DNA from: Zavarzinia marina
Lineage (GTDB): Bacteria > Pseudomonadota > Alphaproteobacteria > Zavarziniales > Zavarziniaceae
Direction of reading: 5' to 3'
Length of the DNA stretch: 64,000 nt
Assembly: GCF_021568905.1 (NCBI RefSeq)
Contig: NZ_JAKGSB010000002.1
Coordinates: forward strand, 372,001 to 436,000
A model generated the notes under the pieces. It did no database searches. It was not told the DNA's origin and was given only the letters and a program-made list of their open reading frames with translations. Both the position numbers and the translations under genes were made by a program. Below are positions 37,439 to 41,410 of this stretch, one piece after another (position 1 is the first letter of the stretch; each line of letters opens with the position of its first letter).

Positions 37439-37469
37439 GGGGGTGAGGTTCGGGTCTACGACGAGAGAA

Positions 37470-37502
37470 TTTAGTGGAGTGTCACCGGAATTCGCGGAAT
37501 TC
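37470..37502 (+). repeat. left inverted terminal repeat
   Basis: Starts TTAGTGGAGTGTCACCGGAA. The reverse complement of 40243-40272 starts TTAGTGGGGTGTCACCGTAA, so only two of the first 20 bases differ, and similarity continues through AATTC-CG-AATT. GTCACCGGAATTC recurs at 37503-37515, a repeated-end pattern like that of IS21-type elements. Confidence 0.75.
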
Positions 37503-37508
37503 GTCACC

Positions 37509-37680
37509 GGAATTCTTCGTCTTCTCCCGCTGGGTCTATCGACAGCGCAACCTTGTCGAACGGTTCTTCAACAAAATCAAACAGTTCCGGGGCATCGCAA
37601 CGCGCTATGACAAGCGGCCGGAAAACTATCTCGCAGCCGTGAAGCTCGTCGCTGCGAGAAGCTGGTGTCAGAGCTTATGA
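37509..37680 (+). pseudogene. IS5-like transposase C-terminal remnant
   Basis: About 56 codons ending at TGA 37678-37680, including YRQRNLVERFFNKIKQFRGI and ATRYDKRPENYLAAVKLVAA. This is the end of the DDE domain of IS5/IS427-family transposases: the E of the triad lies in NLVERFF, followed by the K/R-rich helix. The remaining ~80% of the gene is missing; the sequence upstream runs directly into the left terminal repeat. Confidence 0.85.
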
Positions 37681-37782
37681 GTCTACGGCCTAGCAGATGC
37701 TGCCATAGCGCATGGTTGTGTACGATGATCGGCGGCAATATCGGGAGTTTGGCGGCAGCACTGCGCCAATGTAGTAGTATTC

Positions 37783-40092
37783 TCAGCGGTCCACGTCGTC
37801 AAAGATTGACTGTATGTTCGAACGTGCATTGGCGGCTCGGCCAACGGGCGTTTCCACTCGATCTTCAATGTCGGGGGCACGGGTCTCATTGAGATCCTCA
37901 ATCGCCTTCACGATCGCAATTCGCCCGATATCGATCTTAGTACGGTCGGTGTCATCGATCGGAAGCGCGTCCTCGATACCGTCCAATAAGCTCGACAACT
38001 CATCGAAGTGACTATCCGGGTCACTATCCCCGCAATTCGACTTCCAATCGGAAATATGAGTGTCGAGTTGATCAATAACGTCTCCCCTTACTCGTGCTAA
38101 GAGATCGTCAAACTCGGCATCTGTCAGGAGAGACCGCAGAGAGTCGTCGCGAAAAACACCTCCATCCGGGACCGTAAGAGTCGTATCGACAATGTGTTCT
38201 ACGAGGCTGAGGCGCTTTTCGTCGGGCAAAAGTTTCGCCAGGTGCAGCTTCGCCAGTAGTCGATTTTCGGAGGAGTACGCCATGAATGCGCCTGGGCGGA
38301 GATCGAGAACGTCAGGCGCCTGGTCTACAACCAGCCGCAAGAACGCAGTGTCGCAGCGTTGACCGAGAAAATAGCGGATGCGGTAGTCAATGGGATGTAC
38401 GAGCAAACGATTGAGAAGCGCCGGATACAACGATGGGCCGACACGGACGCTCGCGCCACGCAGTTCCACCCCGCCGCACACAACCTCCTCAAGCAGCCGT
38501 TCGAATTTCGCGCCGCGCAGGTAAATTTCGGTCAGTTCAGGTGAATTGGCGACGAGTGCAGCATAGGCATCGCCAATAGTCGGGTGCTTGAAGGTCCATT
38601 TAGGCCCCTCCGTTGTGTCAACAAGCAGGGCAAGACTTCCGCGAAGCGAATCGAGCGCGAGCCGGATTTCGGCAGCGGTTACGCCCAAAAGTTCTGTGAT
38701 CAACGCTATACGGTCGTCATTCTCGATCGGTGACGCGAGTTGCCCGCCGTGCATGAAAATCAGTGCAACTGCGGCCGCTTCGCCTCGATCGAGATTGCGC
38801 AGCACGTCTTTGAGGAAATCGACGGGTCGCCGTGCAAAATCAAGCAAGCCCTCCTCATCGAGGGTCACTTTCTCCGTAAAGAATGCAGACCCGAGGCGAC
38901 GAGCTGTCTCAGGAAGAAAAGATGCATCTTCCGCAAGTTTTGCCAAATGAGGCTTGATTGCCTTCTTAAACGCAGCCGGTTGATCACCGCGTTTAATGTG
39001 ATTGTACAGGATTTGCGCCTTCTCGGCGGTTGCCAAGCCTTGGACGTTGATGACCACCTGAGATTTGTCGAAAAGCGGAAACGCTCCGGTTTTGAGATCG
39101 CGATGAGCTGATCGCCAGATGTAGGTGCGGGATGTCAGCAGGAAGCGCGCACCCTTGCGCAACGCGGCAGCCATTAGGGGCATCTGCCGATTCCAGGCGT
39201 CGGCAATATGGCGTTGGTACTGAGTGGCGCCGAAAGCATCATCTATCCAGAAGAACTGCTTGGGGTCATCGGGATTCCAATGCCGCATGATGTCTTCAGG
39301 ACTGGTCACGCGGATCGTCGGCGCGTGCCAGTGATCGAGCGCCCCCAAAGCGAGACTCGCGGCGATGGTCGATTTTCCGGAAGCTGGATCTCCAAGCAGC
39401 AAGACAAAATTATGATTGAGTAGCGCGTCCACGCTGTGACGATGAGCATCTGTTACAACGAAACATGCCAGATCGTCCCCAAGTGCGCTCAGGACCGCGT
39501 GAGATTGCGCATAGGCCCGCTCATCAAGGATTTGGGAAAGATCTCCCAATCCATAGACCCTCGGCACCATCACCCGTAGCCGTGACGATTCCCGAATTTG
39601 CTGTGCTATCCAGTCACGCCCAAGAACGACACAGTTCTTCACGCCCACCGCTTCGAACGCCGCAGCGATTGCGTCGGCCTGCGTGCCCGATACGCTGTGA
39701 TTTGTGAGAAGGATGTAGTCTTCAGCCAACCCTCTGGCTGCAAGCTTTCCGGCCTTGGTCAATTCGCCCTTCACGGCGCTCAGGCTTAGCGGTGCATCCG
39801 CCTTGCTCGTGAATTTGCATTGGATTGTCGAGCGACCGGCTGCACCTCCATTGGACCAACGGCCTAGAAATGCACCATCGCGCCCGCCGTCCTTTGAGGG
39901 CAGAAATGTCTCAACCGACCGTTTGAGCACTTCCTGAGCGATTGCTACGCACAGGTCTTGAAACGACTTCCAGCCTAAAGTGTGAAGAGCGTAATCGATT
40001 AATGGTCCTTGCGCTGATGGCAAAAATGAGCCGTCCACCTCTGTAAGGTTCGATACTCGTTTCGCTTCTTGATTATTGATTTCCAACGACAC
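37783..40092 (-). CDS. Mrr-like nuclease fused to a STAND-type NTPase, probable anti-phage protein
   Basis: 769 residues. An N-terminal restriction-endonuclease-like domain (about 30-180) starts FQDLCVAIAQEV and has the Mrr-type site: Asp72 in KDGGRDGAF, then Gln91 and Lys93 in TIQCKFT. A P-loop NTPase follows: Walker A LLLGDPASGKST (232-242), Walker B QFFWIDDAFG (279-288) and sensor-like FLLTSRTYIW (317-326). A helical region to the C-terminus is the likely ligand sensor. This order resembles nSTAND3 and Avs-type antiviral STAND proteins, where binding of a phage product triggers nuclease activity. It is encoded alone in a mobile element. The start is uncertain: GTG 40092 overlaps GAGG; a TTG 6 nt on is an alternative. 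The exact family is inferred. Confidence 0.85.
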   Translation of the reverse strand: MSLEINNQEAKRVSNLTEVDGSFLPSAQGPLIDYALHTLGWKSFQDLCVAIAQEVLKRSVETFLPSKDGGRDGAFLGRWSNGGAAGRSTIQCKFTSKADAPLSLSAVKGELTKAGKLAARGLAEDYILLTNHSVSGTQADAIAAAFEAVGVKNCVVLGRDWIAQQIRESSRLRVMVPRVYGLGDLSQILDERAYAQSHAVLSALGDDLACFVVTDAHRHSVDALLNHNFVLLLGDPASGKSTIAASLALGALDHWHAPTIRVTSPEDIMRHWNPDDPKQFFWIDDAFGATQYQRHIADAWNRQMPLMAAALRKGARFLLTSRTYIWRSAHRDLKTGAFPLFDKSQVVINVQGLATAEKAQILYNHIKRGDQPAAFKKAIKPHLAKLAEDASFLPETARRLGSAFFTEKVTLDEEGLLDFARRPVDFLKDVLRNLDRGEAAAVALIFMHGGQLASPIENDDRIALITELLGVTAAEIRLALDSLRGSLALLVDTTEGPKWTFKHPTIGDAYAALVANSPELTEIYLRGAKFERLLEEVVCGGVELRGASVRVGPSLYPALLNRLLVHPIDYRIRYFLGQRCDTAFLRLVVDQAPDVLDLRPGAFMAYSSENRLLAKLHLAKLLPDEKRLSLVEHIVDTTLTVPDGGVFRDDSLRSLLTDAEFDDLLARVRGDVIDQLDTHISDWKSNCGDSDPDSHFDELSSLLDGIEDALPIDDTDRTKIDIGRIAIVKAIEDLNETRAPDIEDRVETPVGRAANARSNIQSIFDDVDR

Positions 40093-40119
40093 CTCAATTT
40101 TTAAGCGCTCGGCCTAGCT

Positions 40120-40139
40120 GACTGGATGACCATCCAGTC
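40120..40139. promoter_or_regulatory. perfect 9-bp palindrome upstream of the Mrr-NTPase gene
   Basis: GACTGGATG-AC-CATCCAGTC, 28 nt before the start codon and within the element. The placement suits an operator that keeps the gene repressed, though no regulator is encoded in the element. Confidence 0.5.
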
Positions 40140-40242
40140 CAAAATCCTCAGACAGCGTCATTGGGCCAGGGAGACGCGCCCGTCTTTCAGACGATGTCGG
40201 CTCGCTTGTGCCAGATTGACGGTGTTGCGCACGAGATCGAGA

Positions 40243-40272
40243 ATTACGGAATTACGGTGACACCCCACTAAT
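40243..40272 (-). repeat. right inverted terminal repeat
   Basis: Mirror copy of the left repeat. Immediately inside it, read on the minus strand, about 28 codons stay open to a TGA at 40158-40160 and may be the tail of another deleted gene that I could not identify. Confidence 0.75.
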
Positions 40273-40373
40273 TAATCAGTTCAAGACGCAAGTGATGCTA
40301 TGAGCCGCCCCAACAGCGACAAAGGTATTTTCGTCCTGCGGTGCATTGAAAGCCGCCTCCCTGTCTGCTCACC

Positions 40374-40742
40374 CTACATCATGACACTGATCCAATAGAT
40401 CGCCTGCACGAACCCCAGGATCTCAAACACCATCGAGACCCAGATCAGCGTCGTGGGACGGCCGTCGGTGACGAGGCTGAACAGGCGGCCCAGGGTGAGG
40501 CCGCCGGTCAGGACGGCGATCAGCACCAGGGCGGGCAGGGCCAGGGCCGGCATCCAGGCGGCGGCGATCGAGAGGGCGCCGGAGACGAGGGTGACGCCGC
40601 CCATGCCGGCGCGGGTCTGGCTGCGGGCATTGACGCCGCCGAGGGTGATGCCCAGCGTTTCGCTCGCACCGTCGGGATCGAAGAAGGGCCGCAGCCCGAC
40701 CAGCACGATGATGATGCCGGTGACGATCAGAAACCCGTCCAT
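40374..40742 (-). CDS. DUF4345-like small membrane protein
   Basis: 122 residues with four hydrophobic helices (FLIVTGIIIVLVGLRPFF; GGVTLVSGALSIAAAWM; LVLIAVLTGGLTLGRL; VFEILGFVQAIYWISV). The central Arg-Ala-x-Met-Gly-Gly segment followed by a GRL/F turn and EI...Q are features of DUF4345 proteins. No function is known. The gene is separated from the inserted element by about 100 nt of non-coding DNA. Confidence 0.72.
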   Translation of the reverse strand: MDGFLIVTGIIIVLVGLRPFFDPDGASETLGITLGGVNARSQTRAGMGGVTLVSGALSIAAAWMPALALPALVLIAVLTGGLTLGRLFSLVTDGRPTTLIWVSMVFEILGFVQAIYWISVMM

Positions 40743-40816
40743 CCCCTCCCCCTCCCGCTCGAGCGAGCACTTTCCCGGGAGGGTAGCACGGCCACGACCG
40801 CGCGCGGCAGCGGGGA

Positions 40817-41410
40817 TCAGAGAAAATCGGCCATATATCGCCGGAGGGCCGGGATCGCCTTGGCGTCGAAATCCTCGATCAGGCGGCGGCTGAGGCCATA
40901 GAGCACCTGGCGCCGTTCCGTGAAGCCGGCGTCCTTGGGCACGGTGTCGGTCTGGCTGACGCTGACGGTGGTCTGGGCCGTGGTGGTGCCGTCGGTGATT
41001 TCGCGCCGGGCATCGAAGCGGACGTCGAGGCGGGTGGTGACGCGGGCGCCGGGCTCGTCCGTGAACACGCCCTGCACGCCGCCCGTCGTGGCCAGCCGTT
41101 CCTCGATCGCCGAAGCGTCGGTGATCGTCACCGTCAGCCTGCCGCTGCTGCCGGCGGCCTGCAGACGGTCGCCGAGCCAGTTGGTCAGGGCGGTCAGGGG
41201 CGGCACGTCGAATTCACCCTCGACATGGCCTTCGCCGAAGAAGCTGGAGCGGTCGACCACCTCGATCTCGGCGACGTTCAGGCGGAGCGGCGCGCCGCCG
41301 ACATGGAACGGCGGGAAGCTGGGTGCCGGATCGGTCGCGGCGCAGGCGCCGAGCCCGGCCAGGGACGGAACGAGAGGCACGGCGACGAGAAACGCGCGAC
41401 GCGAGATCAT
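40817..41410 (-). CDS. putative Tat-exported lipoprotein, unknown function
   Basis: 197 residues. The N-terminus MISRRAFLVAVPLVPSLAGL then GAC combines a twin-Arg motif with a lipobox (LGAC), so it is probably acylated at Cys23. The mature part (FHVGGAPLRLNVAEIEVVD ... LTVTITDASAIEERL ... VLYGLSRRLIEDFDAKA) resembles small alphaproteobacterial lipoproteins of unknown function that sit in the envelope. Located 41 nt after the stop of hslO on the same strand. Confidence 0.8.
   Translation of the reverse strand: MISRRAFLVAVPLVPSLAGLGACAATDPAPSFPPFHVGGAPLRLNVAEIEVVDRSSFFGEGHVEGEFDVPPLTALTNWLGDRLQAAGSSGRLTVTITDASAIEERLATTGGVQGVFTDEPGARVTTRLDVRFDARREITDGTTTAQTTVSVSQTDTVPKDAGFTERRQVLYGLSRRLIEDFDAKAIPALRRYMADFL

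Follow-up and report, generated by a model that had tools for sequence, protein, structure and literature searches.

Antiviral proteins of the Avs type are built in the order effector, STAND NTPase and helical sensor, and they respond to the terminase, the portal or a different protein of the phage. The nucleases of Avs1-4 are described as cleaving both phage and host DNA, and the nSTAND3 domain (PF20720) is reported for Avs5 (PMC12931631). The solved Avs5 chains (SIR2-STAND; 9jap and 9nc9), 833 and 768 residues long, combine this type of NTPase with a SIR2 effector. In Avs4, solved with the phage portal (8dgf), a nuclease is followed by a STAND NTPase and a helical sensor in a chain of 1534 residues. 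A single-gene candidate system in PADLOC, PDC-S73, consists of an Mrr-type nuclease and then nSTAND3 within 740-780 aa; no mention of it was found in the open-access literature. The STAND core is also shared by eukaryotic NLR and Apaf-1 proteins and by bacterial MalT, which carry different effectors and sensors.

The window analysed here, a stretch of 64,000 nucleotides from Zavarzinia marina, contains a gene of this kind at 37783-40092 on the minus strand. It is an uninterrupted open reading frame of 769 aa with a GTG start, and its domains and motifs agree with the original prediction of a gene joining an Mrr nuclease to a STAND NTPase. The true start may be located two codons downstream, at the TTG at 40086, which has a better Shine-Dalgarno spacing than the GTG both in the window and in Brucella. 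The protein had been considered shorter than the known Avs proteins, which is incorrect, as the Avs5 chains span 768-833 aa and 769 aa is thus an ordinary length. It follows the Avs-type order of domains. Its effector is a predicted nuclease, whereas that of Avs5 is SIR2, and no sequence match to Avs5 was obtained at E up to 1. Among the PADLOC and NCBIfam hits with E up to 1, in a run without a positive-control Avs protein, none belonged to the Avs1-5 profiles. The profile comparison suggested earlier thus matched nSTAND3 but none of Avs1-5.

The N-terminal half of the PDC-S73 profile is matched by all 16 aligned members of the family. The window protein aligns only with profile positions 3-343 of 752 and differs in its C-domain and C-terminus, whereas the true PDC-S73 members L045 and L046 match positions 3-750 and 3-676. 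It is therefore no full-length member of PDC-S73, and it falls into a sister clade in a maximum-likelihood tree, in which the split from the true PDC-S73 proteins has full support and the branches are very long. The protein is a candidate to work in an Avs-like manner, yet by sequence it is neither one of Avs1-5 nor a full member of PDC-S73, and its clade is an apparently undescribed branch, separate from both.

Domain organization and predicted structure

The following features were delineated in the protein:

39583..39993, minus strand: Mrr-type restriction-endonuclease-like domain, residues ~34-170, with Asp72, Gln91 and Lys93
38992..39462, minus strand: nSTAND3 NTPase, residues 211-367, Pfam PF20720 E=1.6e-40, STAND fold
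38548..38991, minus strand: rest of the STAND core with helices and winged helix, residues 368-515, from conservation and model
37885..38547, minus strand: C-terminal helical domain, presumed sensor, residues 516-736, model pLDDT 83.5
37786..37809, minus strand: tail SIFDDVDR with the core F-x-D-[IV]-D, from conservation among relatives and model

The nSTAND3 match scores 138.7 bits against a curated cut-off of 27.2 and is found in all 16 aligned members. Both Walker motifs, A (G234-P236-G239-K240) and B (W282, D284, D285), are invariant across the relatives and are followed within one chain by the helical and winged-helix region, the arrangement of STAND NTPases. Mrr_cat is detected at residues 37-145 with E=0.009, under the Pfam cut-off, and is seen in 12/16 aligned members, mostly weakly. 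Asp72, Gln91 and Lys93 are invariant or near-invariant across the relatives and form a D-(Q/E)xK active site. The nuclease and Walker motifs named in the original prediction are thus conserved among the relatives. The Mrr domain is predicted to cleave DNA, and the protein would oligomerise in an NTP-driven manner. The wing of the STAND core ends with further invariant residues, W499 and H503-P504; by analogy, H503-P504 may play the role of the NLR MHD motif.

The AlphaFold2 model was built from 8 sequences and has a mean pLDDT of 78 and a pTM of 0.63, at which the relative placement of the domains is uncertain. It can be divided into the nuclease (34-170, with strands and helices at residues 41-168), the NTPase (211-350), a winged-helix region reaching to 515 and a helical C-domain (516-736), the latter corresponding to the long helical C-terminal region anticipated from the sequence. 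The chain closes with a short tail, set off by a disordered linker (738-760). The top solved matches of the model in Foldseek are EfAvs5, in first position, and Avs4. The Avs4 match (E=5e-7) extends over model residues 31-427, i.e., the nuclease and the NTPase, with a high rmsd; the sensor of Avs4 is far larger, and the window protein has no detectable sequence relation to it. VIA-align gave Z scores of 13-16 to MalT, Apaf-1, NRC1/NRC2 and NLRP3 over residues ~180-630, at a sequence identity of 9-15% to the NLR/Apaf-1 and MalT proteins. STAND proteins are thus the best fold matches, in agreement with the Avs-like logic of nuclease, NTPase and helical sensor that had been proposed. A fold search with the C-domain returned common helical repeats only, with no clear structural relative, which is not proof of a new fold. 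A sequence search of the solved structures gave nothing for the single protein and only P-loop noise for the family profile.

The core F-x-D-[IV]-D, followed by one to two residues, closes every member with an intact C-terminus. It is mostly preceded by S-[ILV] and is set behind a linker of variable length. L017 and L018 encode a similar terminus in a different reading frame, and the true PDC-S73 proteins have a C-terminal ending unlike it. The pLDDT of the tail is ~72 in the full-length model versus ~45 in a model of residues 516-769 alone. This decrease in the absence of the N-terminal part gives a weak hint, from a shallow alignment, that the tail is packed against the nuclease or the STAND core. 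The tail has neither a Pro-Phe end nor a conserved Gln, and its interpretation as a mimic of an SSB tail or a clamp-binding peptide was dropped.

The island and its flanks

The G+C content of the gene is 55.2%, under the minimum (65.1%) of 564 same-size windows elsewhere (mean 68.8%, sd 1.7), which confirms the deviating base composition noticed earlier. The island is horizontally acquired foreign DNA. The following features are found at its ends:

37471..37502, plus strand: left inverted repeat TTAGTGGAGTGTCACCGGAATTCGCGGAATTC, 28/32 columns identical to the right copy
37510..37680, plus strand: residual 3' end of an IS5-type DDE transposase gene, Pfam DDE_Tnp_1_2 E=1e-4, inside the left repeat
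40158..40241, minus strand: 3'-terminal ~25 codons of a DUF3223 gene, truncated at the right repeat
40241..40271, minus strand: right inverted repeat, at whose inner edge the Brucella homology stops

The score of the inverted repeat was matched by 4 of 5801 random window pairs and by 0 of 3000 shuffles, and its core occurs at exactly two places in the 3.95-Mb genome, both flanking the gene. At the DNA level, the transposase remnant is 83-87% identical to transposase regions of the IS5 family carried by rhizobial plasmids. No element matching the inverted repeats was found on plasmids, and no clear target duplication was seen at the island ends. One repeat-like sequence each, with 2 mismatches, is present on contigs L041 and L043 of a distant genome (G604), and one of these look-alikes is located ~1 kb from a resolvase-like gene.

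A homologous locus of Brucella pseudogrignonensis (L002) covers positions 37793-40241 with 84.6% identity at the DNA level and 90% at the protein level. There, two genes precede that of the nuclease: the first encodes an SMC-like ATPase of 829 aa, the second a DUF3223 protein of 239 aa. The DUF3223 frame ends ...DLVRNTVNLAQASRHRLKDGRVSLAQ in the window versus ...DLVRNTVNLAQANRHRLKDGRISLAQ in Brucella. The island is cut inside this upstream gene, and the window copy is therefore solitary at least in part because of the cut. The description of the gene as travelling alone holds in that the window contains no partner gene, but this state is partly secondary, the 3' end of DUF3223 being left at the island edge. 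The window harbours no SMC-like ATPase as part of a Lamassu-like operon (LmuB plus effector), and no match to the Brucella ATPase was found in the organism's own genome. The island illustrates how one receptor gene got separated from the multi-gene locus of a close relative. A C-terminal half of the gene, 93% identical, lies with a fragment of the same ATPase on contig RPSH01000005.1 (L003), labelled 'Bacillus sp. 2B10 N5'; at 64% G+C, this label appears to be wrong or the assembly contaminated.

Compared with its ~90%-identical counterpart in Brucella, the window copy has a dN/dS ratio of 0.07 over the gene as a whole and of 0.011 within the NTPase. The gene has thus stayed functional across most of this divergence, the ratio being an average over the entire branch between the two copies, solitary stage included.

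A search of five further genomes of the genus did not recover the Mrr-nSTAND3 gene. In three of these, the flanks have the same order (oxidoreductase, 40817 gene, Hsp33 and ArgF-like genes) and the island is absent. The stretch 37439-40816, from the oxidoreductase gene to the gene at 40817-41410, differs in these three species, which suggests an insertion hotspot. The DUF4345 gene of the window (40374-40742) has no DNA match in that stretch of the three congeners.

Relatives and their genomic company

Members of the family were detected in Alpha-, Beta- and Gammaproteobacteria, Bacteroidota, Acidobacteriota, Chloroflexota and Actinomycetota (five phyla). They are rare, being present in only 3 of the 385 sampled genomes of the class, own genome counted, and PHROGs holds no family for the gene. 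The tree intermixes phyla, with, for example, Sediminibacterium beside Piscirickettsia, a pattern expected under horizontal transfer. Several copies (L003, L005, L011, L017 and L018) are broken or trimmed, and such breakage would be common for costly defence genes. On a Mesorhizobium ciceri plasmid (L019:6013-7842), the gene starts at the NTPase, without a nuclease, and retains the conserved tail.

The relatives are carried by plasmids and prophages or lie in defence islands. These, and not core operons, are the contexts anticipated for an anti-phage gene; a few copies (L004, L006 and L008) have ordinary chromosomal surroundings. The neighbours in Brucella are a LmuB-like ATPase, DUF3223 and a type IIG restriction-modification system, and those of L007 are PDC-S06 and IetS. 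Other defence-type neighbours are HerA-SIR2 (L013), DUF4297 (L010), AbiE (L012), OLD (L016) and TIR (L017), as well as type III restriction-modification and KAP, found by profile search or annotation. Seven control stretches from the same plasmids, a small control judged from annotation, contain one methylase and one toxin-antitoxin pair only. Such a neighbourhood is company, not function. L020 and L021 are located in prophages, amid phage regulators and tail genes, downstream of an AriA/OLD-like gene. In these related prophages (IMG/VR; L020:2684-6926 and L021:3032-7274), the AriA/OLD-like ATPase and the Mrr-nSTAND3 gene form a cargo pair with a gap of 49 bp.

Proposed function and alternative readings

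The locus is likely explained as a horizontally acquired single-gene STAND-type immune receptor, probably an abortive-infection nuclease. The defence and mobile context, the purifying selection, the foreign island and the rare, patchy spread are consistent with such a putative anti-phage function, within the limits set by a sub-threshold Mrr_cat match and a model from 8 sequences. At rest, bound ADP would keep the receptor inactive. A trigger of phage or plasmid invasion would meet the C-terminal helical domain (516-736), ATP would displace ADP at the nSTAND3 site and an oligomer would form. The N-terminal Mrr domains, brought together in this way, would cut DNA, by which the invader would be stopped and the cell probably lost too. 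A role of the tail as a latch, which on its disordered linker could hold the nuclease or the NTPase part at rest, is only suggested. If true, a compact receptor clade would join the NLR counterparts of bacteria, packing nuclease, switch and sensor into one gene product of fewer than 770 residues. Such an Mrr-nSTAND3 protein is small enough for complete structural and mutational study, and its tail, conserved in five phyla past a variable disordered linker, provides a cheaply tested hypothesis on nuclease silencing. It is doubtful, as a wider proposal, that the short helical sensor of an undescribed clade keeps its Mrr-nSTAND3 nuclease inactive jointly with the tethered F-x-D-[IV]-D tail, and that the clade serves as a common executioner behind interchangeable SMC-/OLD-like ATPase genes.

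The protein could also be the effector half of a two-gene system, in which an SMC-/OLD-like ATPase encoded upstream senses the invader and leaves execution to the Mrr-nSTAND3 protein; the window copy would then have lost its partner and might be inert. Indeed, the gene directly upstream, in the same orientation, encodes an ATPase resembling SMC, LmuB or OLD in L005, L007, L016, L020/L021 and L035, as well as in L046 of the sister family, and such a gene lies one position further upstream in Brucella, where the gene preceding the nuclease gene is the one inside which the window island ends. However, the close relatives L015, L016, L017 and L035 have four different upstream genes (an unknown 253-aa protein, OLD, GNAT and an SMC-like ATPase, respectively), AbiE takes this place in L012, and L004 has none. 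The ATPase of the Brucella type, 64% identical to that of L035, occurs with or without DUF3223 on Bradyrhizobium plasmids that gave no hit to the Mrr-nSTAND3 protein. The upstream gene thus appears to be interchangeable company rather than a required part, and the idea of an obligatory ATPase partner was dropped. As the solitary window copy is also under purifying selection (averaged over the whole branch), a two-gene system is considered improbable. A weapon between mobile elements, excluding rival plasmids or phages without serving the host, is somewhat unlikely. Plasmids or prophages hold most of the relatives found, but this excess is biased since plasmid and virus collections were searched by design; chromosomal copies exist (L004 and L036), and the mechanism could equal that of an immune receptor.

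Modified DNA is the target of the best-known Mrr restriction proteins. The presence of an Mrr-type nuclease domain would fit a type IV-like, modification-dependent restriction, with the C-domain reading modified DNA and the NTPase licensing the Mrr domain; a type IV mrr gene is reported to restrict transformation (PMC13141931). The winged-helix STAND core is, however, an oligomerisation switch, unlike McrB-type translocases, and no known modified-base reader was found, and we regard this mode of action as very unlikely. Generic P-loop hits alone speak for a housekeeping AAA ATPase or a chance open reading frame. Against it stand the nSTAND3 match and a STAND fold far above AAA, the absence from congeners, the foreign G+C content and the dN/dS of 0.07. 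With STAND proteins (Avs5, Avs4, MalT, Apaf-1 and NLRs) as the best fold matches, the housekeeping-AAA reading is removed, its probability being close to nil. The immune receptor thus stays the favoured explanation.

Two further gene arrangements were observed on plasmids. On the Bradyrhizobium plasmids L037 and L038, a small ORF overlaps the SMC-like ATPase gene, with or without DUF3223 (DCL family), and AbiE or SbcCD-like genes are next in line; this gene set is possibly a separate defence module. On a Sinorhizobium numidicum plasmid (L046:828-5217), a PDC-S06 ATPase gene precedes a true PDC-S73 gene at a distance of 55 bp, and these two 'single-gene' candidates of PADLOC may form one system.
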